A stretch of 64,000 bases of DNA, taken from the NCBI RefSeq assembly GCF_014205275.1, contig NZ_JACHND010000001.1, positions 5,394,001 to 5,458,000 on the forward strand. Reading direction: 5' to 3'. Within the stretch, counting starts at the first letter, position 1. Each line of letters opens with the position of its first letter. Shown one piece after another: positions 12,133-40,718 of the stretch. This DNA comes from Sphaerisporangium siamense (GTDB taxonomy: Bacteria > Actinomycetota > Actinomycetes > Streptosporangiales > Streptosporangiaceae). The notes under the pieces are model-generated. The model worked only from the letters and a program-made list of their open reading frames with translations. It was not told the origin of the DNA and did no database searches. The position numbers and the translations under genes were made by a program.

Positions 12133-12141
12133 AACACCTCA
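12133..12141. promoter_or_regulatory. Island motif site 1 (AACACCTCA) upstream of the P450 promoter
   Basis: AACACCTCA ends three bases before the -35 of the P450 promoter. Close copies of ACACCTCA occur in six other promoter regions of the island. Its place upstream of -35 would suit an activator, or one half of a larger operator. Confidence 0.45.
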
Positions 12142-12144
12142 CCG

Positions 12145-12173
12145 TTGACGCGTGAAACCTATTGCGCTTAACT
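12145..12173 (+). promoter_or_regulatory. Promoter of the P450 operon (TTGACG-N17-TTAACT)
   Basis: TTGACG (12145-12150) and TTAACT (12168-12173) are separated by 17 bases, a near-ideal sigma-70-type promoter. Two palindromes lie directly downstream, where a bound repressor would block initiation. Confidence 0.65.
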
Positions 12174-12204
12174 AGCCACATGGCTAACACTAGCCATCTG
12201 GCTA
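12173..12204. promoter_or_regulatory. Tandem palindromic operator (two TAGCCA-NN-TGGCTA)
   Basis: TAGCCA-CA-TGGCTA (12173-12186) and TAGCCA-TC-TGGCTA (12191-12204) are two perfect palindromes spaced 18 bases centre to centre. They begin at the -10 element of the P450 promoter. The arrangement fits cooperative binding of two dimers of a repressor such as the TetR protein at 15278. Confidence 0.75.
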
Positions 12205-12237
12205 ACCCGGTGGAACGCTACCGATTCCGAGGCTGAG

Positions 12238-13476
12238 ATGACCATCAGCGAAGACCGAGCCACCCGGCTCGCGATCGACGAGATCAACCTGGCAGACCCC
12301 GACTTCTGGCTGCGCGACGACTACCACGACGCGTTGACGGTGCTGCGCGAAGAGCGGCCGATCTCCTGGCACGAGCATCCCGAGAGCGGCGCAGGCTTCT
12401 GGGCGTTCGTCGACCACGCCGACATCGCCGCCGTCACCCAGGACTGGAAGAACTACTCGAGCAAGTACGGGATGCGGGTGCACCACGACTGGGGCACCGG
12501 CCAGCTGCGTCCCGGCACCGGCGTCTTCATCGAGATGGACCCCCCGGAGCACACCGCCAACAGGAAGAACGTGAGCGTCGGGTTCACCCCGCGCCAGATC
12601 CGGCGGATGGACGAGTACATCCGCGCCCAGGCCCGCAGGATCGTCTCCCGCTACAGCTCCGGCGACGAGATCGACTTCGTGGCCGAGATCTCCGCGGACC
12701 TGCCGATCCAGATCGTCTGCGACCTGATGGGCGTCCCCGACGCGGACCGCCCGTACATGCTGGAGCTGTCCAACAAGACGGTCGGCGACCAGGACCCCGA
12801 GTACGGCGTCTCCACCGACGAGGGGGCCCACGCCACGCGCGCCCTGCGCGAGTACGGCGTGGCGCTCGCGGCCGAACGGCGCGACAACCCCGAGGAGGAC
12901 CTGATCTCCTCGATCGCGCGGTTCGAGGTCGGCGGCGAGCTCTGCCCGCCGGAGATGATCGGCGGCTACTTCGCCCTGCTCGTCGCCGCGGGCAACGAGA
13001 CGACCCGCACCGCGATCTCCCACGGGATGCACGCCTTCACGCTGTTCCCCGAGGAGCGCCGCCGCTTCCTAGCCGACCCGGTCGGCCTGCAGGCCACGGC
13101 CGCGGAGGAGATCGTCCGGTGGGCCACGCCCGTGCGGCACATGGGCCGGGTGCTCGAACACGACTACGAGTTCAAGGGCTTCCAGATGCGTAAGTGGCAG
13201 AAGGCCGCCGTCTGGTACGCCGCCTCCAACCGCGACCCCGCGATCTTCGAGAACCCCTTCCGGTTCGACATCGGCCGCGACCCGAACCCGCACCAGAGCT
13301 TCGGCGCCGGCGGCCCGCACTTCTGCATGGGCGCGAACCTGGCACGGCGCGAGATCTGGATGCTCTTCCAGGAGCTGTTCGCCCGCTTCCCCGAGTCCGA
13401 GGTCGTCGGGGACCCCGTCAAGCTGCGCTCGATCCACGTCAACGGGATCAAGTCGATGAAGGTCGTGCTGCGATGA
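12238..13476 (+). CDS. Cytochrome P450 monooxygenase
   Basis: A 412-residue soluble bacterial P450. The oxygen-binding I-helix is AGNETT (251-256), the ExxR motif is EIVR (291-294) and the haem loop is FGAGGPHFCMG with C363 as axial ligand. Overall it most resembles CYP125/CYP142-like actinobacterial P450s, but that is an eye judgement. ATG 12238 has GAGG nine bases upstream. The next three genes supply two ferredoxins and a reductase, making a self-contained class I electron-transfer system. The substrate is presumably the aromatic compound handled by the island or a related hydrophobic one. Confidence 0.95.
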   Translation: MTISEDRATRLAIDEINLADPDFWLRDDYHDALTVLREERPISWHEHPESGAGFWAFVDHADIAAVTQDWKNYSSKYGMRVHHDWGTGQLRPGTGVFIEMDPPEHTANRKNVSVGFTPRQIRRMDEYIRAQARRIVSRYSSGDEIDFVAEISADLPIQIVCDLMGVPDADRPYMLELSNKTVGDQDPEYGVSTDEGAHATRALREYGVALAAERRDNPEEDLISSIARFEVGGELCPPEMIGGYFALLVAAGNETTRTAISHGMHAFTLFPEERRRFLADPVGLQATAAEEIVRWATPVRHMGRVLEHDYEFKGFQMRKWQKAAVWYAASNRDPAIFENPFRFDIGRDPNPHQSFGAGGPHFCMGANLARREIWMLFQELFARFPESEVVGDPVKLRSIHVNGIKSMKVVLR

Positions 13477-13697
13477 CCGGCGCGGTACGGACCACCCGGC
13501 GGCTGTCGGTCGAGACCGACGTGTGCGAGGGCAACGCGGTCTGCGCGCGCATGGCGCCGGACCTGTTCGTGCTCCCCGACGACGTCGAGGTGGTCACCGT
13601 CGTCAGGCAGCCGGACACCGCCGAGCTCGTCAGGCGCGCGGAGATGGCCGTCCGCCGGTGCCCCAAACGCGCCCTGCGCTACGACGAGGTGCTCTGA
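13473..13697 (+). CDS. [3Fe-4S]-type ferredoxin
   Basis: A 74-residue ferredoxin overlapping the P450 gene by four bases (ATGA). Cysteines at C18-x5-C24 and C63 followed by proline (RRCPKRAL) are the three-ligand pattern of actinobacterial [3Fe-4S] P450 ferredoxins. It is the natural electron donor for the P450. Having a second, [2Fe-2S] ferredoxin immediately after is less common. Confidence 0.93.
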   Translation: MTGAVRTTRRLSVETDVCEGNAVCARMAPDLFVLPDDVEVVTVVRQPDTAELVRRAEMAVRRCPKRALRYDEVL

Positions 13698-13699
13698 CC

Positions 13700-14023
13700 A
13701 TGGCGGAGGTGACCCTCATCAACCACTCCGGCACGCAGACCACGCTCGACGTGCCGCCGGGCACCAGCATCATGCGCGCGGCCATCGCCAACGGCGTCCG
13801 CGGCATCTACGCCGAATGCGGCGGCGACACCATGTGCGCCACCTGCCACGTCTACGTCGAGCCCGAGTTCTCCGAGCTGTTCCCGCCCGTCAACGAGGAC
13901 GAGGACGAGATGCTGGAGGCCACCGCCTGCGACCGGCTGCCGACCAGCCGCCTGAGCTGCCGCCTCACCATCCCCGAAGGGTGCGGCGCGGTCGTCGTCC
14001 GGCTCCCCGAGTCGCAGCGATGA
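13700..14023 (+). CDS. [2Fe-2S] ferredoxin (putidaredoxin/adrenodoxin type)
   Basis: A 107-residue [2Fe-2S] ferredoxin with ligands C40-x5-C46-x2-C49-x37-C87 (AECGGDTMCATCHVY, then RLSCRLT) and the acidic partner-docking region VNEDEDEMLEA. It starts two bases after the preceding ferredoxin stop and overlaps the reductase by ATGA. It may serve the P450, or another oxygenase, through the shared reductase. Confidence 0.95.
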   Translation: MAEVTLINHSGTQTTLDVPPGTSIMRAAIANGVRGIYAECGGDTMCATCHVYVEPEFSELFPPVNEDEDEMLEATACDRLPTSRLSCRLTIPEGCGAVVVRLPESQR

Positions 14024-15246
14024 GCGCGCGCGTCGTCATCGTCGGGGCCGGCCACGCCGGGATCTCCACGGCCCTCGAACTGCGCGAGGCCGGGTTCACC
14101 GGCCCGGTGGTCGTGCTCGACCAGGCCGGGCACGACCCCTACGAGCGCCCGCCCCTGTCGAAGGCGTGGCTGGCCGGCGCCGTCTCCACCGGCGAACTGG
14201 CCTTCCGCGCCCGCGAGGTGTACGCGCGGCGGCGGATCGAGCTGCGCACCGGCGTGCGGGTGGACGCGATCGACCGCGGGTCCCGCGAGGTGGTCACCGC
14301 GGACGGCACGCGCCTGCCCTACGACCACCTGGTGCTGGCCACCGGCGCCCGCCCCCGCGCGCTGCCGGTCCCCGGCGCCGGCCTCGCCGGCGTGCACCGC
14401 CTGCACACCCTGACCGACGCGCTGGCGCTGCGCGCCGCCCTGGACACGGCACGCGCCCTGGCCATCGTCGGCGGCGGGTTCATCGGGCTGGAGGTCGCCG
14501 CCGCGGCGCGCAAGCGCGGGGTCCCCACGACGGTCGTCGAGGCGGCGCCGCGGTTGATGCGGCGCGTCGTGAGCGAGCCGGTCTCCGCCTTCTACCACCG
14601 GCTGCACGAGGACGCGGGCTGCGTGGTCCGCACCGAGGCGGTGGTCGCCGAGCTGACCGGCGAGGACGGGCACGTGACCGGGGTGCGGCTCGCCGGCGGC
14701 GCCACGGTGCCGGCCGACATGGTGGTGGCCGGGATCGGCGTGACGCCCGAGACCGGGCTGGCCGGCGCGGCCGGGCTGGCGACCGGTGACGGGGTGCTGG
14801 TCGACGAGGCGCTGCGGACCTCGGACCCGGCGGTCTTCGCCGTCGGCGACTGCGCCCGCTTCCCGCTCGGCGACGCGATGGAGCGCCTGGAGTCGGTCCA
14901 GAACGCGGCCGACCAGGGACGCGCGGTCGCCGCCGCCGTCACCGGCGACGCCCGGCCCTACCGGGACGTCCCGTGGTTCTGGACCGACCAGCACGGATGC
15001 AAGCTGCAGATCGCCGGGATCGCCACCGGCGCCGACGAGTGGGCCGTCGTCGGCAGCGTCCAAGAGCGGCGCTTCACGGTGCTGTGCTGGCGCCGCGGCG
15101 CCCTGGTGGCGGGCGAGTCGGTCAACAGGCCGGCCGACCACCTCGCGCTGCGCCGGCTGATCGCCGCCAAGGCGTCGATCTCGCCCGCGGCGGCGCGGGC
15201 CGACGGCTTCACGCTCAAGGACCACGCCCGCGCGCTGGCCGGATGA
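14020..15246 (+). CDS. FAD-dependent ferredoxin reductase (putidaredoxin reductase type)
   Basis: A 408-residue NAD(P)H:ferredoxin oxidoreductase. The FAD Rossmann motif is GAGHAG (9-14), the NAD motif is VGGGFIGLEVAAAARKRG, and the second FAD motif is FAVGDCARFP. The C-terminal domain contains the RDVPWFWTDQHGCKLQIAG pattern of the putidaredoxin/rubredoxin reductase class. It completes the chain NAD(P)H - reductase - ferredoxin - P450. Confidence 0.95.
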   Translation: MSARVVIVGAGHAGISTALELREAGFTGPVVVLDQAGHDPYERPPLSKAWLAGAVSTGELAFRAREVYARRRIELRTGVRVDAIDRGSREVVTADGTRLPYDHLVLATGARPRALPVPGAGLAGVHRLHTLTDALALRAALDTARALAIVGGGFIGLEVAAAARKRGVPTTVVEAAPRLMRRVVSEPVSAFYHRLHEDAGCVVRTEAVVAELTGEDGHVTGVRLAGGATVPADMVVAGIGVTPETGLAGAAGLATGDGVLVDEALRTSDPAVFAVGDCARFPLGDAMERLESVQNAADQGRAVAAAVTGDARPYRDVPWFWTDQHGCKLQIAGIATGADEWAVVGSVQERRFTVLCWRRGALVAGESVNRPADHLALRRLIAAKASISPAAARADGFTLKDHARALAG

Positions 15247-15277
15247 GGCCGCGGCGCCCGCCGAGAAGGGACCACCC

Positions 15278-15835
15278 ATGAAGCCCGATCCCGAGAACGT
15301 CCCGGCTCCCGAACGCATCAAGGACGCCGCGATCCGGCTGATGCGCGTCAAGGCGCCGAGCCGGATCACCGGCCGGGAGCTGGCGGCCGAGGCCCAGGTC
15401 AACTACGGCCTCGTCCACCACTACTTCGGCGGCAAGAACCAGGCGCTGCGCGAGGCGTTCCGCGAGCTCGCCCGGCAGTACGTCGACGCCGTCAAGACCA
15501 TGCCCGACCACGAGCGGATCCTGCCCAACGCCGGGCCCGAGCTGAGCGACGTGTGGTTCGTGCTGGCGAACCTGGCGATGGACCCCGACTCCCTGGCCAT
15601 CGTCGACTGGGACTACCCCCTGCTACGTAACCGGCTCGCCGCCCGCCTGGACGCGGAAGGCGAGAGCGCGGGCGCGGCCCGGGAGCACATCAGGCAGGAC
15701 ATCGCCGTCGCCTTCGCGCTCGCGCTGGGCTGGACGGTCTTCCAGCCCTTCATCTGCGACGCGCTGGAGCTCGACGAGGAGGCCCGCAAGGCCGTCGACC
15801 GCGCGACCGCCGACATGGTCGCCGAGCGCTGGTGA
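15278..15835 (+). CDS. TetR-family transcriptional regulator
   Basis: A 185-residue regulator with an N-terminal TetR helix-turn-helix (GRELAAEAQVNYGLVHHYFG, about residues 35-54) and a helical ligand-binding C-terminal domain without further identity. It follows the reductase by 31 bases on the same strand, with a GAGAAGGGA ribosome site. It is the best local candidate to bind the tandem TAGCCA palindromes at the head of this operon. The effector would be a P450 substrate or product, by inference. Confidence 0.88.
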   Translation: MKPDPENVPAPERIKDAAIRLMRVKAPSRITGRELAAEAQVNYGLVHHYFGGKNQALREAFRELARQYVDAVKTMPDHERILPNAGPELSDVWFVLANLAMDPDSLAIVDWDYPLLRNRLAARLDAEGESAGAAREHIRQDIAVAFALALGWTVFQPFICDALELDEEARKAVDRATADMVAERW

Positions 15836-15943
15836 GACGGCGATGCCCGCCCCGCACGACGACGGCCACCCCATCTGCGGCGCGCACGCGCGCCGGTCAC
15901 AACGAGGCGACGGGAAGCGGCGCCGGATATCGGAGGTACACCT

Positions 15944-17212
15944 GTGAGCGGTCGAGCACGCGACATCGCGATCGTAGGAGCGGGACAGCTCGGGCTCCAC
16001 CTGGGGATCGGCCTGCTGCGCCAAGGACACCGCGTCCGGCTGATCACCAATCGCACCGGCGAGCAGATCCGCGAGGGCGGAGTGCTCTCCAGCCAGGCGA
16101 TGCTGGCCCCGAGCCTCGATCTCGAACGGCGCCTGGGCCTGGAGCTCTGGGAGGGCGCCTGCCCGCCCATCCAGGGCGTCCACCTGACCTGGGTGGACCG
16201 GTCCGGCGCGGAGGTGACCCGCTTCTCCGCCCCCCGGGCGCGCCCGGCCCTGTCGATCGACCAGCGGGTGAAGATGCCCGCGTGGATGGACAGGTTCACC
16301 GCCGCCGGCGGCGACCTGGCCATCGAGGACGTCGACGCCGGCGGGCTGAGCGCCCTGGCCGGCGAGCACGACCTGGTCGTGGTGGCCGCGGGGAAGGGCG
16401 ACATCTCCGGGCTGTTCCCCCGCGACACCGACGCGACCGAGTTCGACACGCCGCAGCGCCACCTCGCGCTCGCCTACGTCCGCGGCGTGCGCCCGCACGA
16501 GGTGTTCGAGGGCAACGACTTCGGCAAGGCCGACGGTGTCGGGGAGATGTTCATGTTCCCCGCGCTCACCGTGTCGGGACCGTGCCACATCATCACCGTC
16601 GAGGCCGAGCCGGGCGGCCCCCTGGACGTGTTCGCGCCGCGGACCGCGCCCGAGCGGGTGCTGGACCAGATCAAGGACGCCGCCGCGGCCCACTTCCCGT
16701 GGCTGGCGAAGCGGATCGCCGGCGCCGTGGTCACCGACGCGGGCGCCACGCTGGTCGGGCGCTTCGCCCCCACCCGGCGCAGGCCCGTCGCGCACACCGC
16801 CTCCGGCCGGGCGATCCTCGGCGGCGGCGACGTGCTGGTGCTCAACGACCCGGTCACCGGGCAGGGCGCGAACAACGCGGCCAAGTGCGCGCAGCTCTAC
16901 CTGGACGAGATCGCCGGCCACGGCGACGCGCCGTTCGACGAGGCGTGGATGACGCGGACGTTCGAGCGCTTCGAGAGCCTGGTGTCGGCCTCCACGCGCT
17001 GGACCAACCAGGTGCTGCGGCCCTGGCCGCCGCACGTGCGCGACCTGCTCGCGGGCGCCCGGGACCGCGGCGACCTCGCGCAGGCGTTCGCGGAGGGCTT
17101 CGGGGACCCGGCCTCGATCCTGTCCTGGTGGGAGAGCCCGCGCGAGGCCGCGCGGCTCCTCGGCCGCGAGGGCGACACCGCCGGGCACGCGGTGACGGGC
17201 GGCCCGCGATGA
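15944..17212 (+). CDS. FAD-dependent monooxygenase of the StyA/indole monooxygenase group
   Basis: A 422-residue single-component-FAD oxygenase with GxGxxG at 12-17 (VGAGQLGLHLGIGLL) and a StyA-like layout, including DLVVVAAGKGDIS and LVLNDPVTGQGANNAAKCAQ for FAD. These enzymes take reduced FAD from a separate reductase and epoxidise styrene or indole. Here the reductase is the next gene (ATGA overlap) and an SDR follows. StyA-like oxygenase, reductase and SDR together also characterise the iif/ind indole oxidation operons. GTG 15944 has GGAGG eight bases upstream. Indole as substrate is inferred from this gene set. Confidence 0.85.
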   Translation: MSGRARDIAIVGAGQLGLHLGIGLLRQGHRVRLITNRTGEQIREGGVLSSQAMLAPSLDLERRLGLELWEGACPPIQGVHLTWVDRSGAEVTRFSAPRARPALSIDQRVKMPAWMDRFTAAGGDLAIEDVDAGGLSALAGEHDLVVVAAGKGDISGLFPRDTDATEFDTPQRHLALAYVRGVRPHEVFEGNDFGKADGVGEMFMFPALTVSGPCHIITVEAEPGGPLDVFAPRTAPERVLDQIKDAAAAHFPWLAKRIAGAVVTDAGATLVGRFAPTRRRPVAHTASGRAILGGGDVLVLNDPVTGQGANNAAKCAQLYLDEIAGHGDAPFDEAWMTRTFERFESLVSASTRWTNQVLRPWPPHVRDLLAGARDRGDLAQAFAEGFGDPASILSWWESPREAARLLGREGDTAGHAVTGGPR

Positions 17213-18348
17213 CGGCCGCGGTCGAGCTGTCCGGCGCCGAGTACCGGGACGTGATCGGGCGCTTCGCCTCCGGGGTGACGATCATCACGACCCGCCACGA
17301 CGGCGTCGACTACGGGATGACGGCGAGCGCGGTCTGCTCGCTGTCGCTCGACCCGCCCATGGTCGTCGTCTGCGTGAAGCGCGACGCGACGACCGGCGTG
17401 GCCATCGCGGCCGGCGGCACCTTCGCCGTGAACGTGATGTCCTCCGAGCAGGGCTGGCTGGCCCACCGGTTCGCCACCCCGCTGCCCGACCGGTTCGCCG
17501 GGGTCGGCGTGCGCCGCGAGGCCCCGGAGGGGGACCCGCTGTTCGAGGACTGCCTCGCCTACCTGGAGTGCGAGGTCGAGGAGGAGGTGGCGGGCGGCAC
17601 CCACCGGGTGTTCCTCGGCCGGGTGCGGCGCGCCGCCGCCGCCGACCTGGAACCGCTGACCTACTTCCGCGGGAAGTTCGGGCGCTTCGAGCTGGAACAG
17701 CACGCGCAGGCGTACCGCGACCTGTACCGGATGGTGGTGGAGCGCGCGCTGCCGCTGCACGAGCCGCTGGCGCCGGCCGCGCTCGCCGAGCGGCTCGGCA
17801 TCCCCGTCTCGGCCGCGTTCCACGCGCTGGTCCGGCTCACCGCCGACGGGCTCGTCCACCGCGACCCCGAGCGCGGGTTCCTGCAGGTGGTGTTCAAGGC
17901 CGAGCAGGCGATCGAGAGCTACGAGGTCAAGCGGATCCTGGACATGGCCGTGGTGGAGCTGACGGTCGGCGCGGTGCCCGAGGAGGGGTTGCGCCGGCTG
18001 GAGGAGCTCTGCGACCGGGCCAACGAGCTGGTCGACGACGAGCACGGCGTGCTGGACGTCGCCGCCTACCGCGAGCGCGCGCTCAGGTTCCAGGAGGCGA
18101 TGATCGGGCTGACCGGCAACGCGACCCTGGTCGCGACCTTCCGCACCCTGCGGATCCCCGAGCTGATCTCCCTGCCGCACCAGATCGGCCCCGCCACCGC
18201 GCCCAGCATCGCGGCCAACCGCCGCCGCATCGTGGACGGCTACCTGGCCGGCGACCCGGCGCTGGTACGCGCGGCGCTGCTCGACCAGTACGAGCTGTGC
18301 AAGAGCCTCACCGTCGCCTACATCGGCCGGTCGGGCGGTGAACTGTGA
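17209..18348 (+). CDS. Flavin reductase fused to a GntR/FCD-type regulatory domain
   Basis: A 379-residue fusion. Residues 1-165 are a StyB/HpaC-type flavin reductase domain (FASGVTIITTRHDG, MTASAVCSLSLDPPMV, TYFRGKFGRF). Residues ~170-235 look like a winged helix (PAALAERLGIPVSAAFHALV, LTADGLVHRDPERGFLQV). Residues ~240-365 look like an FCD ligand-binding helix bundle of FadR-type GntR regulators. The reductase should feed FADH2 to the preceding oxygenase. The C-terminal part may sense the aromatic substrate and regulate either the reductase or transcription. Acinetobacter HPA hydroxylase reductase has a comparable C-terminal MarR-like domain that gates activity. The frame is continuous, with no sign of a sequencing fusion. 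Confidence 0.85.
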   Translation: MTAAVELSGAEYRDVIGRFASGVTIITTRHDGVDYGMTASAVCSLSLDPPMVVVCVKRDATTGVAIAAGGTFAVNVMSSEQGWLAHRFATPLPDRFAGVGVRREAPEGDPLFEDCLAYLECEVEEEVAGGTHRVFLGRVRRAAAADLEPLTYFRGKFGRFELEQHAQAYRDLYRMVVERALPLHEPLAPAALAERLGIPVSAAFHALVRLTADGLVHRDPERGFLQVVFKAEQAIESYEVKRILDMAVVELTVGAVPEEGLRRLEELCDRANELVDDEHGVLDVAAYRERALRFQEAMIGLTGNATLVATFRTLRIPELISLPHQIGPATAPSIAANRRRIVDGYLAGDPALVRAALLDQYELCKSLTVAYIGRSGGEL

Positions 18349-19148
18349 CGGGCGGGGACCGGGTCGCCCTGGTCGCCGGAGGCGCGACCGTGCTCGGCGA
18401 GGCCGTGGTGCGCGGGCTGGCCGAGGACGGCTTCACGGTGGTCGTGGCGGACATCGACGCCGAGGCGGGCGAGCGGCTGCGCGAGGCCGTCGGCGGGACC
18501 TGCGTGTTCCTGCCCATGGACATCACCGACGAGGACTCCGTCCGCGCGGTGGTGGCCGAGGCCGCGCGGCGGGGGCGGCTGGACGTGGTCGTGACCATGG
18601 TCGCCTCCTACGCCGACCCCGGCCTGGCGGCGGACGCGGACGCCTGGGTGCGGAGCCTGCGCGTGAACGTCGTCGGCCCCGCGCTGGTGATCCGCGAGGC
18701 GGCGCCGCACCTGGCCGCGTCGGGCCGGGGCGCCGTCGTCAACGTCGCGAGCGTCAGCGCGGACCGCGCGCAGGCGAACAAGCTGCTCTACCCCGCGGGC
18801 AAGGCGGCGCTCGGCCAGCTCACCCGCAACCTCGCGCTCACGCTGGCGCCGTCGGGCATCCGGGTGAACAGCGTGTCGCCGAGCTGGGTGTGGTCGGCCC
18901 CGATGGCACGGCGTTCGGGAGGCGACCGTGCCCTGGCCGACGAGGTGGCGGCCGGTTTCCACATGATCCCGCGGATGGCCGACGCCCACGAGGTGGCCGA
19001 CGCGATCCGCTTCCTGTGCTCGGCGTCGGCGTCGTTCGTCACCGGTGAGGACCTGCACGTCGACGGCGGCTACTCGGCGCTCAGCCCGGAGGGGAAGGTC
19101 AACCCCTGGGAGCGGCACGCACAGGCCGCGGCCGGGCGCGCAGAATAG
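18345..19148 (+). CDS. Short-chain dehydrogenase/reductase (SDR)
   Basis: A 267-residue classical SDR. Catalytic residues S136, Y149 and K153 are in place (VNVASVSAD, LLYPAGKAAL) and the C-terminus has VTGEDLHVDGGY. The cofactor loop is atypical: VAGGATVLGEA has E where the last glycine of TGxxxGxG is expected. It overlaps the flavin reductase by GTGA. By analogy with IifC-type SDRs it could oxidise the dihydrodiol or hydroxy product of the StyA-like oxygenase; that is inference from order. Confidence 0.88.
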   Translation: MTGGDRVALVAGGATVLGEAVVRGLAEDGFTVVVADIDAEAGERLREAVGGTCVFLPMDITDEDSVRAVVAEAARRGRLDVVVTMVASYADPGLAADADAWVRSLRVNVVGPALVIREAAPHLAASGRGAVVNVASVSADRAQANKLLYPAGKAALGQLTRNLALTLAPSGIRVNSVSPSWVWSAPMARRSGGDRALADEVAAGFHMIPRMADAHEVADAIRFLCSASASFVTGEDLHVDGGYSALSPEGKVNPWERHAQAAAGRAE

Positions 19149-19169: not shown

Positions 19170-19214
19170 GTGTAATCTATAGATATCAGCGTATTTCCCC
19201 GAGAGGCGGGACCC

Positions 19215-24973: not shown

Positions 24974-24981
24974 TGAGATGT
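24974..24981. promoter_or_regulatory. Island motif site 4 (TGAGATGT, variant of TGAGGTGT)
   Basis: TGAGATGT differs from the motif by one base. It lies between two divergent genes, 58 bases from the CrtI-like start and 45 from the TIM-barrel gene start, and could act on both. Confidence 0.35.
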
Positions 24982-25025
24982 TACCCTTTTGGCCGGCGCC
25001 TTCAAGCGGGCGGAGAGGGGATTCG

Positions 25026-26860: not shown

Positions 26861-26953
26861 CAACGATATGCCGCCGGTCTTGACGGTGGGCATCTCCGCC
26901 GATTCAATGGTCAACGCATCACCAGAGTGACGTGTTAATCGTTGGGAGCGCGT

Positions 26954-29659: not shown

Positions 29660-29765
29660 CAAGTTTAGCATTATGCCTCCCGTCCGGCACCGGCGATATG
29701 GGGGTGGCTATCATGACCCGTGGGCAAAACGTGCCATAGGGGTTGATATGGCAAAGGAGTGGTTG

Positions 29766-31451: not shown

Positions 31452-31468
31452 GCCGTTCCCGGCGCGCC

Positions 31469-33354: not shown

Positions 33355-34196
33355 GGCGCCGCCTGCTCGGCCTCGCGGCCGAGGCCTGGCTGCCGGTGGC
33401 GATCCTGCTGGTCTGGTGGTTCGCCTCAGCATCGTCCACCTCGGCATACTTCCCGTCCCTGCGGACCATCGCGGTGTCCTTCTACGACACGTGGTTCTCC
33501 GACCGCATGATCACCGACGTGCTGCCGAGCCTCGGCCGGTTCCTCGCCGGCTTCTGCGTCGCGGCGGTCCTCGGCGTCGCCCTCGGCACGGTGCTGGGTA
33601 CCGCCCCGGCCCTGCGCCGGGCGGTGGACCCGATCTTAGACTTCTTCCGCTCCCTGCCCAAGCCGGCTCTGCTGCCCATCGCCATCGTGGTGTTCGGCGT
33701 CGGCGACGGGATGAAGGTGTTCATCATCGCCTTCAGCACCCTCTGGCCCATCCTGCTCAACACCATCGACGGCGTCCGCGGCGTGGACCCGCTGCTCCTG
33801 GACATGTCCCGGGTGTACGGCATCGGCCGCGCCCAGCGCATCGGGCGCGTGGTCCTGCCCGCGGCGAGCCCGCAGATCTTCGTCGGCGCGCGGGTGTCCC
33901 TCTCGATCGGCCTGATCCTCATGGTCGTGTCCGAGATGGTCGCCTCCACCAACGGCCTCGGGTACTTCGTGCTGTTGTCCCAGCAGACCTTCGCCATCCC
34001 CGAGATGTGGGCCGGCATCATCCTGCTCGGCGTCATCGGCTACCTGACCAACTTCCTCTTCGTCCTGGCCGAGCGCCGCCTCCTCGCCTGGCACAAGGGC
34101 TGGCGGGCCACCGCCCTCGGCGAGGCCGTCGCCGCCCCCACGCCCCGGCCGGCGGGGACGGCCGCCGGCACGACACCCCCGGTCGCGTCGAGCTGA
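33351..34196 (+). CDS. ABC transporter permease (SsuC/TauC family), subunit 2
   Basis: A 281-residue permease of the same family with the loop SRVYGIGRAQRIGRVVLPAA. Codon 96 is TTA (33636-33638), one of three TTA codons I found in the window. The C-terminal tail after the last helix is Pro/Ala/Thr-rich. It should pair with subunit 1 and take substrate from either of the two binding lipoproteins. Confidence 0.92.
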   Translation: MRRRLLGLAAEAWLPVAILLVWWFASASSTSAYFPSLRTIAVSFYDTWFSDRMITDVLPSLGRFLAGFCVAAVLGVALGTVLGTAPALRRAVDPILDFFRSLPKPALLPIAIVVFGVGDGMKVFIIAFSTLWPILLNTIDGVRGVDPLLLDMSRVYGIGRAQRIGRVVLPAASPQIFVGARVSLSIGLILMVVSEMVASTNGLGYFVLLSQQTFAIPEMWAGIILLGVIGYLTNFLFVLAERRLLAWHKGWRATALGEAVAAPTPRPAGTAAGTTPPVASS

Positions 34197-34227
34197 CCTT
34201 CCGCGACCAGCCGATCGGAGAAGACAC

Positions 34228-35040
34228 ATGCTCGAGGTCGCAGGACTGTCCAAGTCCTACGGTGAGGGCGACGGCGCCGTGCGCGCCATCGACGACCTCA
34301 CCTTCACGGTGAACCCTCACGAGTTCGTCTGCATCGTCGGGCCGTCAGGCTGCGGCAAGACGACGCTGCTGAAGTGCCTGTCCGGGCTCATGCCGCCCAC
34401 CGGCGGCAGGGCCGTGCTCGACGGGACGGTGATCGACGACCCGCCCGAGACGCTCGCCCTGGTCTTCCAGGAGTACACGCGATCCCTGCTGCCCTGGATG
34501 ACCGTCCTGGACAACGTCGTCCTCCCCCTGCGGGCCAAGGGGATGGGCAAGGCGGAACGGCGCCGGCTGGCGCTGGAGTCGCTGGAGGCCGTGGGCCTCG
34601 CCGAGTTCACCCACGTGTACCCGTGGCAGCTCTCCGGCGGCATGCAGCAGCGCGTCGCCATCGCCCGCGCGCTGGCCTACCGGCCCAAGGTCCTGCTGAT
34701 GGACGAGCCGTTCGCCTCCGTCGACGCCCAGACGCGCGCCGAGCTGGAGGACCTCATGCTGCAGGTGCGCGACACCTTCGACGTCACCGTGGTCCTGGTC
34801 ACCCACGACATCGACGAGGCGGTGTACCTCGCCGACCGCGTGGTCGTGCTGTCCAAGCGCCCGACGCGGGTCCGCGAGATCGTCGAGGTCGGCCTTCCCC
34901 GTGCCCGCGACCAGGTCACCACCAAGGAGGACCCCCGGTTCGCCCGGCTGCGCGGGCACGTCGCGCGCCTGATCGTCGGCGCCCCCGGCGACGCGGCCGC
35001 CGCCGGGGACCTCACGTCCGCGCCCGCCGAGGTGGCCTGA
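34228..35040 (+). CDS. ABC transporter ATP-binding protein (SsuB/TauB family)
   Basis: A 270-residue importer ATPase: Walker A GPSGCGKTT, Q-loop FQEYTRSLLPW, signature LSGGMQQRVAIARAL, Walker B VLLMDEPFASVDAQTR and H-loop VTHDIDEAVYLADR. The sequence is typical of sulfonate/taurine/nitrate-type importers. ATG 34228 follows GGAGAAG. Its stop overlaps the next start in TGATG, linking uptake with metabolism. Confidence 0.95.
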   Translation: MLEVAGLSKSYGEGDGAVRAIDDLTFTVNPHEFVCIVGPSGCGKTTLLKCLSGLMPPTGGRAVLDGTVIDDPPETLALVFQEYTRSLLPWMTVLDNVVLPLRAKGMGKAERRRLALESLEAVGLAEFTHVYPWQLSGGMQQRVAIARALAYRPKVLLMDEPFASVDAQTRAELEDLMLQVRDTFDVTVVLVTHDIDEAVYLADRVVVLSKRPTRVREIVEVGLPRARDQVTTKEDPRFARLRGHVARLIVGAPGDAAAAGDLTSAPAEVA

Positions 35041-36686
35041 TGCCCCTCGTCCTGGAGGCCATGGGCCAGGCCCTGCGCGACCTCGGCGTCCCGGTGATGT
35101 TCGGCCTGCCGGGCAGCGGCAACTACGAGCTGGTCCACGCCGCCCGCGCCGCCGGCGTCGCCTACTACGGCGCCAACCACGAGGCCGGCGCGGTCGGCAT
35201 GGCCGACGGCTGGGCGCGGGTGACCGGGGCGACCGGCCTCGCCATGCTCTCGCAGGGCCCCGGGCTCACCAACGGGCTGACCGCGCTCACCGAGGCGGTC
35301 AAGAGCAGGACCCCGCTGGTCGTCGTCGTCATCGACACCCCCAGGCTCTCCCTCCACGGCAACCTCAACATCGACCAGACCGCGGTGGTGACCGCGCTCG
35401 GCGCCGGCGCCACCACGGTCCGCTCGGCGGCGACCGCCGTGGACGACCTGCGGCGCTCCCTGCGCCGCGCCGCGGTCGAGCGCCGTCCCGTCGTGCTGAT
35501 GGTCCCGCTCGACCTGGTCCACGCCGAGGTGCCCGCGGGCGCCGCCGTCAGAGAGGGGATCGCCCCGCCCTCGGCGCCCTGGCCGGACCCCGAGGCCATC
35601 GCCGAGGCGGCGAAGCTCGTCAGGGCCGCCGCCCGGCCCGTCGTCCTCGGCGGACGCGGGGCCGTGCGGGCCGGCGCCCGTGAGGAGCTTCTCGCCCTCG
35701 CCGGCCGGATCGGCGCGCTGCTGACCGTGTCGGCGCCCGCCAAGGGCCTGTTCGCGGGCGCGGAGTTCGACCTCGGCGTCTCGGGCAGCTTCGCCTCGCC
35801 GCTGGCCGCGGGCCTGCTCGCCGAGGCGGACCTGGTGCTGGCGTTCGGCGCCGGGCTGAACGCCTGGACCACCGGCAACGACCGGATGCCGCCCCCCGGC
35901 GTGCCGGTCGTCCAGGTGGACGTCGACGCCCGCTCGATCGGCGCGCACCGTCCCGCCGCGGTGGCGATCCAGGCCGACGCCCGGGTCGCCGCCCGCGCCC
36001 TGTACGAGGAGCTCGGGCCCGGCGACCGGCCGGGCTTCAGGACCGCGGAGGTCGCCGCGCGGATCCGCGGGCACGACCCGGCGAAGGAGTTCACGCCCGC
36101 CGACGGCGGCCGGGGCCTGGACCCGCGCGTGTTCACCCTCGCCCTGGACCGGATCCTGCCCTCCGAGCGCACGGTCACCATCGACTCCGGGCACTTCATG
36201 GGCTGGCCGGCCAAGTACCTGTCGGCCCCCGACGCCGCCGGGTTCCTCTACCCGCAGGCCTTCCAGTGCGTGGGCCTCGGCCTCGGGAACGCCGTCGGCG
36301 CCGCCGTGGCCCGTCCCGACCGGATCAGCGTCCTCGCCGTCGGCGACGGCGGCATGATGCTGAGCCCGCAGGAGCTCGACACCGCCGTCCGCCACGGCCT
36401 GCCGCTGCTCGTCGTGGTGTACGACGACTCGGCCTACGGGGCCGAGGTGCACCGGTTCGAGCCGATCGGCCTGGCGGTCGACCTGGTCCGCTTCCCCGAC
36501 CGCGACTTCGCCGCGATGGCACGTTCCGCCGGCGCGCGCGGCGTCACCGTCCGCGCCGTCGAGGACCTGGAGGAGCTGCGCGACTGGCTCGGCGACCCCC
36601 GCGGCCCCATGGTGCTGGACGTCAAGATCGATCCGACCGTGCTCGGCGGCTGGGTCGCCGGCAACTCCAAGGCGGCACTGGCATGA
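35040..36686 (+). CDS. Thiamine diphosphate-dependent enzyme (benzoylformate decarboxylase-like)
   Basis: A 548-residue ThDP enzyme of the acetolactate synthase/benzoylformate decarboxylase superfamily. The cofactor-activating glutamate is in GANHEAGAVGMADGWAR. The ThDP/Mg motif begins GDGGMMLSPQELDTAV and ends at VVYDDSAYG, where DD replaces the more usual ND or NN pair. Regulatory subunits or FAD sites of true acetolactate synthase are not evident. Placed among aromatic genes, decarboxylation of an aryl-glyoxylate is likely. Isatinate (2-aminobenzoylformate), the product of isatin hydrolase, would be a fitting substrate (inference). Confidence 0.85.
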   Translation: MPLVLEAMGQALRDLGVPVMFGLPGSGNYELVHAARAAGVAYYGANHEAGAVGMADGWARVTGATGLAMLSQGPGLTNGLTALTEAVKSRTPLVVVVIDTPRLSLHGNLNIDQTAVVTALGAGATTVRSAATAVDDLRRSLRRAAVERRPVVLMVPLDLVHAEVPAGAAVREGIAPPSAPWPDPEAIAEAAKLVRAAARPVVLGGRGAVRAGAREELLALAGRIGALLTVSAPAKGLFAGAEFDLGVSGSFASPLAAGLLAEADLVLAFGAGLNAWTTGNDRMPPPGVPVVQVDVDARSIGAHRPAAVAIQADARVAARALYEELGPGDRPGFRTAEVAARIRGHDPAKEFTPADGGRGLDPRVFTLALDRILPSERTVTIDSGHFMGWPAKYLSAPDAAGFLYPQAFQCVGLGLGNAVGAAVARPDRISVLAVGDGGMMLSPQELDTAVRHGLPLLVVVYDDSAYGAEVHRFEPIGLAVDLVRFPDRDFAAMARSAGARGVTVRAVEDLEELRDWLGDPRGPMVLDVKIDPTVLGGWVAGNSKAALA

Positions 36687-37774
36687 CAGGACGGACAGAG
36701 GCGCCGGGCATCAAGAGCTACCCGCGGTTCGTCGCCGCCGCCGTGCAGGCCGCACCGGTCTTCCTCGACCCGGACGCGACCGTCGCCAAGGCGCGCTCGC
36801 TGATCGCCGAGGCGGCGCGCAACGGGGCCGAGCTGGTCGCCTTCCCCGAGGTGTTCGTCCCCGGCTACCCGTACTGGAACTGGACCATGACCCCGGTCCA
36901 GGGCGGCCCGTGGTTCGAGCGCCTGTACCGGGCCTCCGTGGACGTGCCGGGGCCGCACGTGGACGCGATCCGCGCCGCGGCCCGGGAGCACGGCTGCCAC
37001 GTCGTCATCGGCGTCAACGAACGCGCGCGCTACGGGGCGGGCACCCTCTACAACAGCGTGCTCGTGATCGACGACAGGGGCGAGCTGCTCGGCGTTCACC
37101 GCAAGCTCGTCCCGACCTGGGCCGAGAAGCTCACCTGGGCCAACGGTGACGGCAGCTCGCTGCGCGTCCACGACACCGAGGTCGGGCCGCTCGGGGTGCT
37201 CGCCTGCGGCGAGAACACCAACACGCTGGCCAGGTTCACCCTGCTGGCGCAGGGCGAGCTCGTCCACGTCGCCAACTACATCGCCCTGCCGGTCGCGCCC
37301 GAGGACTACGACATGGTCGAGGCGATCAAGGTCCGCGCCGCCGCGCACGCCTTCGAGGGCAAGGTCTTCAACATCGTGGCCTGCTCCACCGTGTCCGAGG
37401 AGATCATCGACACGGTCGCGGGCGGGGACGAGGAGGCGCGCAAGCTGCTGAGCCGGGAGCACAGCGCGTTCTCCGGCGTGTTCGGCCCGGACGGCCGGCT
37501 CATCACCGAGCCCCTCATCGACGAGGAGGGCATCGTCTACGCCGAGATCGACCTGTCCCGCTGCATCCAGCCCAAGCAGATGCACGACATCATCGGCCAC
37601 TACAACCGCTTCGACATCTTCGAGCTGCGCGTCGACACCCGGAGCCGGCGGCCGGTGGTGCTGCTGCGCGACGACCCTCCGCCCGCGAACACCGCGAGGC
37701 CGGGCGCCGAGACCACCCGGGCGCACGCCGACCAGCACCCCGTGCGCGCGCCGCGCGCCGGCGACGGCGACTGA
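36683..37774 (+). CDS. Nitrilase
   Basis: A 363-residue member of the true nitrilase branch of the C-N hydrolase superfamily. The triad is E56 (AFPEVFVPGYPYW), K141 (HRKLVPTWAEKL) and C175 (VLACGENTN), with E148 as the usual fourth residue. The CGENTN motif is that of nitrile-converting enzymes. It converts a nitrile to acid and ammonia in one step; arylacetonitriles or indole-3-acetonitrile are candidates. It overlaps the ThDP gene by ATGA. The C-terminal 40 residues are Pro/Arg/Ala-rich and probably disordered. Confidence 0.93.
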   Translation: MTGRTEAPGIKSYPRFVAAAVQAAPVFLDPDATVAKARSLIAEAARNGAELVAFPEVFVPGYPYWNWTMTPVQGGPWFERLYRASVDVPGPHVDAIRAAAREHGCHVVIGVNERARYGAGTLYNSVLVIDDRGELLGVHRKLVPTWAEKLTWANGDGSSLRVHDTEVGPLGVLACGENTNTLARFTLLAQGELVHVANYIALPVAPEDYDMVEAIKVRAAAHAFEGKVFNIVACSTVSEEIIDTVAGGDEEARKLLSREHSAFSGVFGPDGRLITEPLIDEEGIVYAEIDLSRCIQPKQMHDIIGHYNRFDIFELRVDTRSRRPVVLLRDDPPPANTARPGAETTRAHADQHPVRAPRAGDGD

Positions 37775-37848
37775 CGGCGACCGGCCCCACCTGACCCCAC
37801 CTGACCACGAGACGCACCCGTCGGATGCGCACGAATGAAAGGGAAGCC

Positions 37849-38949
37849 ATGAGAGAGGACGTCATCGGCCGTTCCCGCGTCCAGGACACCGAGGAACTCG
37901 AGCGGTACTACGCGGAACTCGGGAAGTTCGACGCCGGAGCCCTGTGGACCGTGGCGAACGAGATCGAGCCCTGGTACCCCCAGCCCCGCTCGGTCCCCAT
38001 GCACTGGCGCTACCAGGACCTGCGGCCCCTGGTCCTGAAGTCGGCCTCGCTGGTCAGCGGCGACGACGCGGGACGGCGGGTGGTCATGCTCGTCAACGAG
38101 GGCCGCAGGGAGCTCAGCGCCGCGGTCGGCCTCCTCTACACCGGGCTGCAGATCATGAACCCGGGGGAGGCCATGACGGCGCACCGTCACGCCGCCGCCG
38201 CGCTGCGCTTCGTCATCGAGGGCGAGGGCGCGTGGACCATCGTCGACGGGGACCGCCTCAAGGTCGGGCCGCGCGACTTCGCCATCACCCCCAAGGGCAC
38301 CTGGCACGAGCACGGCAACGACTCCGCGGAGAACCCGGTCATCTGGCAGGACGGCCTGGACATCCCCCTGATCAACGCTCTTGACGCCAACTTCTACGAG
38401 GTGCACCCGGAGCTGCACCAGGTGCCGGGCGCGGTCGTCAACACCTCGCTGCTGCGGCACGGCGCGGGCGTGCTCAAGCCGGACCGCAGGAGCTGGAGCA
38501 AGCGGTACTCCCCGCTGCTGGCCTACCCCTGGGACATGACCTACCAGGCGCTGCTCGACCAGGCCAAGGTCAGCGAGGGAACCCCCTACGACGGGGTGAT
38601 CATGGAGTACGTCAACCCGGTCACCGGCGGCTCGGTCATGCCGACCATGGGCGCCCACATGCAGTTGCTGCGGCCGGGCCAGGCCACCCAGGCGCACCGG
38701 CACACCGGCTCGGTCATCTACCACGTGGCCAAGGGCCGGGGCCACTCCATCGTCGCGGGCCGCCGGTTCGACTGGAAGGAGAACGACATCTTCGCCGTCC
38801 CCTCCTGGGCCTGGCACGAGCACGCCAACGACGACGACGCCGACGACGCCTGCCTGTTCTCCTTCAACGACTTCCCCATGATCCACTCGCTGGACCTGTG
38901 GGCCGAGGAGGCGTACTCCGCCGACGGCGGCCACCAGCCCGTCCTCTGA
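37849..38949 (+). CDS. Gentisate 1,2-dioxygenase-like bicupin
   Basis: A 366-residue bicupin dioxygenase. The N-terminal cupin has iron ligands H112 and H114 (AHRHAAAALRF) and H153 (TWHEHGND). The C-terminal cupin keeps an equivalent set (AHRHTGSVIYH, WAWHEHAND). The family cleaves gentisate or other substituted salicylates between C1 and C2. The next two genes suit its product, maleylpyruvate. ATG 37849 has an AAAGGGA site; ATG 37825 is less well placed. Gentisate is the default substrate; an amino- or hydroxy-salicylate is an alternative. Confidence 0.9.
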   Translation: MREDVIGRSRVQDTEELERYYAELGKFDAGALWTVANEIEPWYPQPRSVPMHWRYQDLRPLVLKSASLVSGDDAGRRVVMLVNEGRRELSAAVGLLYTGLQIMNPGEAMTAHRHAAAALRFVIEGEGAWTIVDGDRLKVGPRDFAITPKGTWHEHGNDSAENPVIWQDGLDIPLINALDANFYEVHPELHQVPGAVVNTSLLRHGAGVLKPDRRSWSKRYSPLLAYPWDMTYQALLDQAKVSEGTPYDGVIMEYVNPVTGGSVMPTMGAHMQLLRPGQATQAHRHTGSVIYHVAKGRGHSIVAGRRFDWKENDIFAVPSWAWHEHANDDDADDACLFSFNDFPMIHSLDLWAEEAYSADGGHQPVL

Positions 38950-39022
38950 CCGCCCCCGCGGTCCCCGTCCGCGGCGACGGCCGTCCTCGCCCGGCGTTCC
39001 ACCCCATCCCCAAGGAGTTCCA

Positions 39023-39925
39023 TTGCGACTGCTCACCTTCCAGACCGCCGGCCTGGAGCCGCGCGCCGGTGCGCTCGAAGGCGAGGACGTCATCGACCTC
39101 GCCGCCCTCGGTGAGGCCGCGGGCCGGCCGCTGCCGCGCACGACCGGCGGCTACGTCGCCGACGAGACCGCGCTCGCCACGGCACGCGACCTGCTCACCG
39201 CGCACCGCGGCGCCTGGCCCGCGGGCACGGCGCACCGGCTCGGCGACGTGACCCTGCGCGCCCCCCTGCGGCCCGGGAAGATCGTGGGGGTGGGGCTGAA
39301 CTACGTCGAGCACGTGGCGGAGTCGAGCCGCTCCCTGGACACCGCCAAGGAGCTCCCCACCCGGCCGGTGCTGTTCTCCAAGCCGGCGACCGCGGTCGTC
39401 GGGCCGGGCGAGCCGATCCTGCACAACGCCGCGCTCACCGAGCAGCTCGACTGGGAGTGCGAGCTGGCCGTCGTCATCGGGAGCACCGCGCGCGGCGTCA
39501 AGGCCGGGGACGCGCTCGCGCACGTGTTCGGCTACTCGATCACCAACGACATCAGCGCCCGCGACCAGCGGCGCTCGGGACAGTGGTTCTTCTCCAAGGG
39601 CCAGGATTCCTACGCGCCGCTCGGGCCGTGGATCGTGACGGCCGACGAGATCGGCGACCCGCAGGACCTCGACGTGTCCCTCCGCGTCAACGGCGAGGTG
39701 AAGCAGAAGTCCAACACCCGCCACATGCTCTTCTCCATCGCCGACCTCATCGCCGACATCACCTCCGGCATGACCCTGGAGCCGGGCGACGTCATCGCGA
39801 CCGGCTCGCCGTCGGGCGTCGGGGCCGCGCAGGTCCCGCCGCAGTTCCTGCGCCCGGGGGACGTCGTCGAGCTGGAGATCGAGAACATCGGCCGGCTCGT
39901 CAACCCCGTCGTCGCCCACCCCTGA
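39023..39925 (+). CDS. Fumarylacetoacetate hydrolase-family protein (probable maleylpyruvate/acylpyruvate hydrolase)
   Basis: A 300-residue FAH-fold enzyme. Residues from about 80 match the family (LRPGKIVGVGLNYVEHVAES, QLDWECELAVVIG, GYSITNDISARDQ, GDVIATGSPSGVG). The acidic metal ligands lie in the WECELAVVIG stretch and the downstream D. TTG 39023 is the start, with AAGGAGT upstream. Next to a gentisate dioxygenase it should split maleylpyruvate (or fumarylpyruvate) into pyruvate and maleate (or fumarate). A maleate isomerase gene follows and no maleylpyruvate isomerase is seen, so direct maleylpyruvate hydrolysis is favoured. Confidence 0.9.
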   Translation: MRLLTFQTAGLEPRAGALEGEDVIDLAALGEAAGRPLPRTTGGYVADETALATARDLLTAHRGAWPAGTAHRLGDVTLRAPLRPGKIVGVGLNYVEHVAESSRSLDTAKELPTRPVLFSKPATAVVGPGEPILHNAALTEQLDWECELAVVIGSTARGVKAGDALAHVFGYSITNDISARDQRRSGQWFFSKGQDSYAPLGPWIVTADEIGDPQDLDVSLRVNGEVKQKSNTRHMLFSIADLIADITSGMTLEPGDVIATGSPSGVGAAQVPPQFLRPGDVVELEIENIGRLVNPVVAHP

Positions 39926-39962
39926 GCCGCGGCGCCCCCGACACCACCACCGAAGGAGGACC

Positions 39963-40718
39963 GTGATCCCCCGCCGTATCAGGATCGGCCAGATCGTTCC
40001 CAGTTCCAACATCACCATGGAGACCGAGATCCCCGCCATGTTGCGGGCCAGGGAGCGGGTCGAGCCCGAGCGCTTCACCTTCCACTCCAGCCGCATGCGG
40101 ATGACGGAGGTGACCAAGGAGCAGCTGGAGGCGATGGACGACGACGCCGTGCGCTGCGCCGTCGAGCTGACCGACGCCCGCGTGGACGTCATGGGCTACG
40201 CCTGCCTCGTCGCGATCATGAGCCGTGGTCTCGGCTACCACCGCGACTCGCAGCGGCGGCTGCGGGAGAGCGCCGTCGGCGCCGGGGCCGACACACCGGT
40301 CGTCACCAGCGCGGGAGCCCTGATCGAGGGGCTGAACGCGCTCGGCGCGAAGAAGGTCGCGCTGATCGCGCCCTACATGCTCCCCCTGACCAAGGCGGTC
40401 GTGGAGTACATCGAGCACGAGGGCATCACGGTCACCGACTACATCGCGCTGGAGATCCCCGACAACCTGGAGGTCGGCGCGCGCGACCCGCGCGTCCTCA
40501 CCGACATCGTCCAGGATCTCGACCACCAGGACGCCGACGCCGTCGTGCTCTCCGCGTGCGTGCAGATGCCCTCCCTGGAGGCCGTCCAGGAGGTGGAGGA
40601 CGCCATCGGCAAGCCCGTCGTGTCGGCCGCGGTGTGCACCGTCTACCAGATGCTGAAGCAGCTCGGCCTCAAGACCTACGTGCCGGACGCCGGCGCGCTG
40701 CTGTCCGGACGGTACTGA
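39963..40718 (+). CDS. maiA: Maleate cis-trans isomerase (Asp/Glu racemase superfamily)
   Basis: A 251-residue enzyme with the two catalytic cysteines of maleate isomerase/arylmalonate decarboxylase relatives: C81 (MGYACLVAIMS) and C199 (LSACVQMPS). The N-terminal IVPSSNITMETEIPAM carries the carboxylate-binding Asn. It would isomerise maleate to fumarate for the TCA cycle, completing a gentisate route via maleate. The GTG start is only three bases from GGAGG, a tight spacing, but no other start is near. The symbol follows the Alcaligenes/Nocardia gene name; note that maiA is also used elsewhere for maleylacetoacetate isomerase. Confidence 0.88.
   Translation: MIPRRIRIGQIVPSSNITMETEIPAMLRARERVEPERFTFHSSRMRMTEVTKEQLEAMDDDAVRCAVELTDARVDVMGYACLVAIMSRGLGYHRDSQRRLRESAVGAGADTPVVTSAGALIEGLNALGAKKVALIAPYMLPLTKAVVEYIEHEGITVTDYIALEIPDNLEVGARDPRVLTDIVQDLDHQDADAVVLSACVQMPSLEAVQEVEDAIGKPVVSAAVCTVYQMLKQLGLKTYVPDAGALLSGRY

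Follow-up and report, generated by a model that had tools for sequence, protein, structure and literature searches.

Bacterial gene clusters of the iif/ind type for indole oxidation are known from Acinetobacter and Cupriavidus, among others. The available text of a 2018 review poses the questions of whether indole degradation involves isatin and of which genes act on anthranilate, and it assigns the 'gentisate pathway' of anthranilate to an unreported enzyme (PMC6221969). In Nocardia opaca, 5-hydroxyanthranilate is described as a product of anthranilate (PMC4539516, available part). Here, we analyzed a 64,000-nucleotide window from contig NZ_JACHND010000001.1 (C1; positions 5,394,001 to 5,458,000) of Sphaerisporangium siamense, a soil-type actinomycete with a genome of 8.5 Mb. 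The window carries an inserted catabolic island with about 27 genes between 12,238 and 40,718, as judged by open frames, GC by codon position and family scans (all coordinates are those of the window). Its gene content suggests an indole/isatin catabolic island that likely leads from indole to anthranilate, and the reading up to anthranilate or its CoA ester is well supported by context. For the complete proposal, that the island serves to degrade indole or a closely related indolic compound via cleavage of 5-hydroxyanthranilate, we see an even chance. We infer all reactions, substrates and their order from gene content, the insertion as one block, family placement and recurring neighbours, which were seen directly.

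The island is a single insertion

The inserted block spans 11996-40754 (no strand assigned). In a genome of the same genus (G006), the end of hisG (window 11,995) is followed, after a gap of about 10 bp, by the equivalent of 40,755, leaving a nearly flush empty site. The block 11,996-40,754 is absent next to hisG in all four flanks fetched (G006, G001, G007 and G010). Because the block is absent and the site in G006 is nearly flush, we regard the island as a single inserted unit and not as a chance grouping. Genome G004 carries the island genes from the cytochrome P450 through the FAH-family hydrolase at 90-98% protein identity; the stretch fetched stops before the end of the maleate isomerase gene. 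The indole-monooxygenase-like gene, indA, was found in three of the 11 genomes of the genus. The third copy (47%, in G010) lies at a different locus, where indA and a flavin reductase gene are all that was seen of the island set.

The end regions 11,951-12,250 and 40,651-40,870 share no exact direct or inverted 11-base repeat. Rfam gave zero matches in window positions 10000-43000. A tRNA-Arg called by ARAGORN at 36408-36475 lies inside a protein-coding gene (the thiamine diphosphate enzyme below) and has no Rfam match; it is probably false.

Genes of the proposed upper route

All genes named in the preliminary description of this locus (12133-40718) were recovered in open frames and family scans. 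The route would start with a group E monooxygenase resembling indole monooxygenases (IndA, 15944-17212, +) and a flavin reductase (17209-18348, +), which together would epoxidise indole. The best solved match of IndA is 7z4x (393 bits), which we take to be the Variovorax indole monooxygenase VpIndA1, the record name being silent on identity. StyA (3ihm) scores 127 bits, so that by these scores IndA resembles indole monooxygenases more than styrene monooxygenases. The fingerprint of group E indole monooxygenases is given as S46-Q48-M50-V/I73-I76-A96 in the available text of PMC13101512. With positions read by eye from the 7z4x alignment and not StyA-numbered, the window protein has S-Q-M-I-V-A, exact at five of six positions with Val for Ile at 76. 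The reductase is fused to an FCD/GntR-like C-terminal part (PF01613 and PF07729 above the gathering score, PF00392 just below). Another aromatic cluster in this genome also encodes a flavin reductase with a fused FCD-type regulator part (L172:14941-15918).

A short-chain dehydrogenase/reductase (SDR; 18345-19148, +), which is found beside IndA and flavin reductase elsewhere too, would convert the dihydrodiol to 3-hydroxyoxindole. A CrtO-like FAD oxidoreductase (23309-24916, -; NF045689 at 156 bits, below cut-off) would oxidise the latter to isatin. We surveyed 19 IndA loci with flanks of up to 10 kb, some shorter. SDR, IndA, flavin reductase, CrtO-like protein and cyclase occur together in four of them (L008, L009, L010 and L015). 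The same five-gene set is complete on an Azospirillum plasmid (L189) and was found on an Alloyangia plasmid by tblastn and record annotation. The CrtO-like gene lies between or beside the IndA and cyclase genes in L008, L009, L010, L015 and L189. Both Glutamicibacter loci (L009 and L010) add a thiamine diphosphate (ThDP) enzyme, and L009 adds a luciferase-type enzyme.

Isatin would then be hydrolysed to isatinate by an isatin-hydrolase-like cyclase (21459-22265, -; PF04199) with the motif H-x3-H-x-D-x3-H. Its four best matches among solved structures are isatin hydrolases at 225-245 bits (5nna 245, 4j0n 225), and the best kynurenine formamidase (KynB) match reaches 29 bits. Isatin hydrolases are marked by Mn ligands, a WxW pocket and a GLQC or GLAS signature, according to the available text of PMC6117287. 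The window protein keeps the Mn ligands H-x3-H-x-D and the catalytic His (EHVGTHLDAPIH), and its WxW/FxW pocket is present as WRW. The signature varies among IndA-linked cyclases: GLQC in the proteobacterial L008, L015 and L189, GLAS in Alloyangia and GITS in Glutamicibacter. Neither the oxygenase nor the cyclase was seen to fall away from indole or isatin enzymes, as judged from best solved matches and motifs rather than from a phylogeny of characterised enzymes; the exact signature is missing from the cyclase (see below).

The next enzyme (35037-36686, +) belongs to the acetolactate-synthase superfamily of ThDP enzymes by family scan and is our candidate isatinate decarboxylase, which would yield 2-aminobenzaldehyde. 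It had been described as benzoylformate decarboxylase-like; the ThDP assignment stands and the benzoylformate decarboxylase assignment does not, with 145 bits against an NCBIfam cut-off of 493. Phylogenetic analysis placed it as sister to 23 cyclase-linked ThDP enzymes with 100/100 support, in a tree rooted with five other ThDP enzymes from the same genome, where the window and outgroup branches are long. Its nearest relative in the genome is a cyclase-linked enzyme (46%), and the others share at most 33%. A cyclase is found in 216 of 345 genomes of the order at E <= 1e-60, and a ThDP gene adjoins it in 28/28 best cyclase loci (the window's own genome, G000, and G004 excluded). In 19 larger cyclase-ThDP loci (12.8-20 kb), IndA had no match. 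Two-gene cyclase-ThDP pairs with the motif GLTQ (L031-L058, L059 and L061-L078) are widespread in the order. We do not assign these stand-alone pairs to isatin, because the cyclases read carry GLTQ.

An aldehyde dehydrogenase (ALDH; 28107-29603, -; family scan) would oxidise 2-aminobenzaldehyde to anthranilate, and a benzoate/2-aminobenzoate-CoA-ligase-like enzyme (29673-31451, +) would form anthraniloyl-CoA. The ligase scores 221 bits with the anthranilate-CoA ligase 4wv3, its best solved match, and 205 with benzoate-CoA ligase, a small margin. Of the 28 closest ligase loci (78 genomes matched; same two genomes excluded), 19 have a gene for anthraniloyl-CoA monooxygenase (ACMR), an enzyme of the 2-aminobenzoyl-CoA pathway, at most 1.5 kb from the ligase gene. 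Among 11 larger ligase loci, two (L155 and L160) have the cyclase-ThDP pair and one (L158) has two IndA-like genes. The suggestion that the ThDP enzyme, ALDH and ligase act in series from isatinate to anthranilate and its CoA ester is thus backed by sequence and context.

The Alloyangia plasmid carries genes for SDR, IndA, flavin reductase, ACMR, cyclase, an FAD oxidoreductase, both subunits (alpha and beta) of an indolepyruvate-oxidoreductase-like enzyme (IOR) and an AMP-binding protein. Its ACMR is annotated as bifunctional salicylyl-CoA 5-hydroxylase/oxidoreductase and scores above the model cut-off. Enzymes resembling indolepyruvate oxidoreductase can convert aryl-glyoxylates to aryl-CoA, so the Alloyangia cluster would do in one step the work of the ThDP enzyme, ALDH and ligase.

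A recurrent lower module around the ring-cleavage dioxygenase

Four plus-strand genes end the island. They encode a nitrilase-superfamily hydrolase (36683-37774), a bicupin of the gentisate dioxygenase (GDO) family (37825-38949), an FAH-family acylpyruvate hydrolase (39023-39925; family scan) and a maleate cis-trans isomerase (MI; 39963-40718). MI matches 4fq7 with 327 bits over residues 5-251 of 251. The GDO scores 511 bits with 3bu7 and falls below the gentisate 1,2-dioxygenase cut-off of TIGR02272 (322.6 of 442.1 bits), and the nitrilase falls below that of the Nit6803 model TIGR04048 (242 of 502.6 bits).

A plasmid search returned 17 records whose GDO shares at least 55% identity, and 15 of these 17 were examined; the next GDO matches reached at most 43% (60 of the 176 records listed, spread). 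In a tree, the 16 window-type GDOs group together with 100/100 support, apart from nine other GDO-family proteins. We counted genes within 12 kb of the GDO in the 15 window-type loci and in five ordinary GDO loci. FAH is present in 15/15 window-type loci, and orthologues of the nitrilase (62-72%) and of MI (64-66%) in the same eight. Four of these eight also hold IOR alpha and a cyclase with the isatin hydrolase signature. A nitrilase-family match of any kind occurs in 13/15, IOR alpha in 5/15, ACMR in 5/15 and either of the last two in 9/15. The five ordinary loci have no orthologous nitrilase and no MI, one distant nitrilase-family match (4.8 kb away), and MaiA in three, one of them the query's own source. 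The nitrilase had been taken to point to an upstream nitrile; on these plasmid loci (eight of 15 against none of five ordinary ones), we dropped that view and propose that it is a maleamate amidase.

Seven cyclases were found in six of the 15 window-type loci, and all of them carry GLQC. About 18 kb separate the cyclase and GDO genes in L220 and L223. The cyclases in Sagittula, in Sulfitobacter and in one Shinella copy are surrounded by SDR or thiolase genes and may serve another route. A Caballeronia plasmid has IOR alpha/beta, a thioesterase, ACMR, GDO, FAH, a nitrilase-family protein, MI and a cyclase in one stretch. The Ruegeria pomeroyi locus combines the four-gene module with IOR and a thioesterase, and its GDO is presumably the solved 3bu7 protein, which on the ring-cleavage reading proposed below would probably belong to a 5-hydroxyanthranilate module. 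The species is named in PMC13280823.

We propose that a 5-hydroxylase and a thioesterase would release 5-hydroxyanthranilate (2-amino-5-hydroxybenzoate) from anthraniloyl-CoA. Candidates for the hydroxylase are two island enzymes, the P450 and the luciferase-type monooxygenase, and a salicylyl-CoA-5-hydroxylase-like protein encoded elsewhere in the genome. The GDO-family enzyme would cut between C1 and C2 with the amino group retained, so that C2 becomes a carboxamide and the product is maleamylpyruvate. FAH would split this into pyruvate and maleamate, the nitrilase-family amidase would remove ammonia to give maleate, and MI would form fumarate. Because C2 leaves as a carboxamide, this amide route uses all four lower genes and needs no deaminase before cleavage. 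We hold tentatively, at a little under an even chance, that such an enzyme opens 5-hydroxyanthranilate directly, that nitrogen is lost after ring opening through the nitrilase-family amidase, and that the module is the signature of this chemistry in Actinomycetota and Pseudomonadota. The preliminary description found no step from anthranilate to gentisate; such a step may not exist if the GDO cleaves 5-hydroxyanthranilate.

Evidence against the proposed route and alternative readings

Several observations weigh against the proposed route, some on its individual steps and some on the union of its two parts. The cyclase has GVTS in place of GLQC/GLAS, so we call it isatin-hydrolase-like and not a member of the isatin hydrolases; of the earlier isatin hydrolase assignment, the structural matches, Mn ligands and WxW pocket hold and the signature does not. 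Most IndA loci lack isatin genes: a clear cyclase is present in 4/19 and a CrtO-like gene in 7/19, L005 has a cyclase match of 24% only, and the Streptomyces loci have neither gene within the flanks surveyed.

No full-length ACMR was found in the genome or in the island. The ACMR homologues of the genome consist of the N-terminal domain only, and one (47%) is in another aromatic cluster (C1:3.18 Mb). For the 5-hydroxylase we have candidates only, any of which may act (P450, luciferase-type or salicylyl-CoA-5-hydroxylase-like), and the thioesterase is likewise putative. The luciferase-type candidate also occurs in Glutamicibacter L009, in a genome without GDO, and near a 3-hydroxyanthranilate dioxygenase gene in L145. 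In favour of the route, 5-hydroxyanthraniloyl-CoA is reported as a product of ACMR under NADH limitation (PMC3534580, available part), a precedent like the 5-hydroxyanthranilate of Nocardia opaca. In the other aromatic cluster (L172:9411-10997, C1 about 3.185 Mb), a protein with a salicylyl-CoA 5-hydroxylase-like N-terminal domain and a C-terminal part of no assigned family is encoded two genes from an aryl-AMP-ligase-like gene and is a candidate 5-hydroxylase outside the island.

For the lower module, the orthologous nitrilase and MI are absent from 7/15 window-type loci, and in the control set, L237 shows ACMR-, ligase- and ALDH-like matches (38, 31 and 37%) without the module. The Fisher p values, 0.05 for the orthologous nitrilase and likewise for MI and 0.014 for any nitrilase-family match, come from small numbers of non-independent loci (L220 and L223 are near-identical, L218 and L229 close). 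The nearest solved dioxygenase, 3bu7, also carries the name gentisate dioxygenase. That name and the 511-bit match favour a reading with the same upper route, in which anthranilate is hydroxylated and deaminated to true gentisate before cleavage, FAH acts as a maleylpyruvate hydrolase, MI acts on maleate and the nitrilase is peripheral. 5-Hydroxyanthranilate followed by gentisate in Nocardia opaca (PMC4539516) and gentisate in Alcaligenes In3 (PMC6221969), both from the available parts of these papers, point the same way. Family membership alone is no proof of 5-hydroxyanthranilate cleavage either, because the 5-nitrosalicylate dioxygenase does not act on that compound (PMC10306065, available part). 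We nevertheless consider prior formation of gentisate unlikely: no arylamine deaminase was recognised in the island, and the pairing of nitrilase and GDO in eight of 15 loci would be left unexplained.

The two parts of the route meet only in the window island, since IndA is missing within 12 kb of the GDO in all 15 window-type loci and the Glutamicibacter genomes lack GDO. CrtO-like and ThDP genes are equally absent from the 15 loci (0/15 within 12 kb), and no GDO was found at E <= 1e-20 in either Glutamicibacter genome that bears the upper operon. The closest GDO (Embleya L222, 72%) has the module, and within 12 kb of it neither isatin nor CoA-pathway genes were seen. Cyclase and IOR matches are missing in that range from L222, L224 and L232, all three of which have the lower module. 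These data would suit the joint insertion of two modules without relation to each other, one for indole/isatin (12-25 kb) and one for nitrile/mandelonitrile or hydroxybenzoate that comprises the transporter, ThDP, nitrilase and gentisate genes. The permease, ATPase, ThDP and nitrilase genes do overlap or nearly touch, apart from the IndA operon. Yet the ThDP enzyme falls in the cyclase-linked clade and GLQC cyclases occur in six of 15 window-type GDO loci, and we rate this reading as improbable.

Three island proteins, resembling arylsulfotransferase (ASST), BtpA and metallo-β-lactamases (MBL), have no place in the 5-hydroxyanthranilate proposal. If the first substrate were another indolic compound (indole-3-acetonitrile, indoxyl sulfate, skatole or oxindole), an upstream role could fall to the nitrilase or to the ASST-like and MBL proteins. 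The nitrilase family member, the ASST-like protein, the SsuA-like importer and the best solved MBL match (8gyg), which is named arylsulfatase, speak for this reading; we think it very unlikely, since the MBL match is weak (96 bits) and in other taxa the nitrilase goes with the ring-cleavage module.

Other genes of the island

The preliminary description was silent on the P450 and its partners, on the CrtO-like, MBL, luciferase-type, PaaX-type and ASST-like proteins and on the ABC importer. The cytochrome P450 (12238-13476, +; PF00067) is a candidate hydroxylase. A single-cluster ferredoxin, a 2Fe-2S-type ferredoxin and a ferredoxin reductase (13473-15246, +), whose gene ends overlap or nearly touch, presumably serve it. 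Two exact copies of TAGCCANNTGGCTA lie upstream of the P450 gene (12173-12204) and could be an operator; at least two matches with up to two mismatches arose in 12/100 shuffles. A TetR-type regulator (15278-15835, +) has models below cut-off, as has a PaaX-type regulator (31469-32356, -; TIGR02277 at 134 bits); PaaX-like matches also occur near relatives of the ligase.

The ASST-like gene (19215-20411) directly follows those for IndA, the reductase and SDR. NMT1/SsuA-like substrate-binding proteins are encoded twice (20408-21388, + and 25809-26765, -; family scan), and an ABC importer has two permeases and an ATPase (32506-35040, +; SsuBC/NtrBCD-like by family scan). The MBL-fold hydrolase gene (22268-23161, -; PF12706) is beside the cyclase gene, and a thioesterase or lactamase function is speculative. 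Its relatives were found in three of 249 genomes at E <= 1e-50 (G000 and G004 counted), plus two Novosphingobium plasmid matches. A BtpA-like protein, recognised by eye (24978-25739), has no Pfam or NCBIfam match and is limited at E <= 1e-15 to two of the 249 genomes, G000 and G004.

The luciferase-type (RutA/SfnG-like) flavin monooxygenase (26942-28048, +; PF00296) matches solved RutA with 135 bits and is also found near cyclase-ThDP genes in L009, L143 and L145. Among the larger luciferase-type loci, two of eight (L143 and L145) have the cyclase-ThDP pair. Their clusters (L145:491-9475 and L143:8460-19522) encode a permease-like protein (by eye), luciferase-type monooxygenase, flavin reductase, cyclase, ThDP enzyme, RidA-like protein and amidohydrolase. 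The cyclase of both lacks the WxW pocket, and in the L145 cluster a 3-hydroxyanthranilate dioxygenase also scores above cut-off. In further genomes from the family (L146-L150), luciferase-type relatives (57-60%) adjoin an AraC-like gene (by eye).

Significance and comparison with known systems

Among the matches listed for the open literature, screened by title and start of abstract with subscription papers mostly outside, we found no description of this gene set or of isatinate decarboxylation by a ThDP enzyme. The island and the recurrent modules offer candidate genes for all three points raised by the 2018 review: the enzyme of the gentisate route, the role of isatin and the genes for anthranilate. 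If true, the proposal would supply the anthranilate 'gentisate pathway' with genes, the ring being opened while nitrogen is still attached. Some cupins taken for gentisate dioxygenases, and some 'nitrilases', may then be misnamed. The lower-module enzymes resemble ordinary soluble proteins.

Amidases and maleate isomerases together make up the maleamate part of nicotine and nicotinate degradation, where the amidase belongs to another superfamily. The logic of maleamate to maleate to fumarate is common to that pathway and the island, and the island isomerase has a maleate cis-trans isomerase as its closest solved match. The gtdA-type gentisate pathway shares the dioxygenase family and FAH, whereas the island has a nitrilase-family protein and MI, no MaiA and a dioxygenase of a separate clade. 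With the 2-aminobenzoyl-CoA pathway it shares a related ligase and a PaaX-type regulator, but it lacks ACMR and has gentisate-family cleavage instead. The isatin hydrolases of Labrenzia and Ralstonia have the family, Mn ligands, catalytic His and WxW in common with the island cyclase, which differs by GVTS. Finally, the set of indole monooxygenase, flavin reductase and SDR is shared with iif/ind-type clusters (Providencia, PMC9871250, available text), and in the island it is joined to genes for a CrtO-like protein, an isatin-hydrolase-like cyclase, a ThDP enzyme, ALDH, a ligase and ring cleavage.

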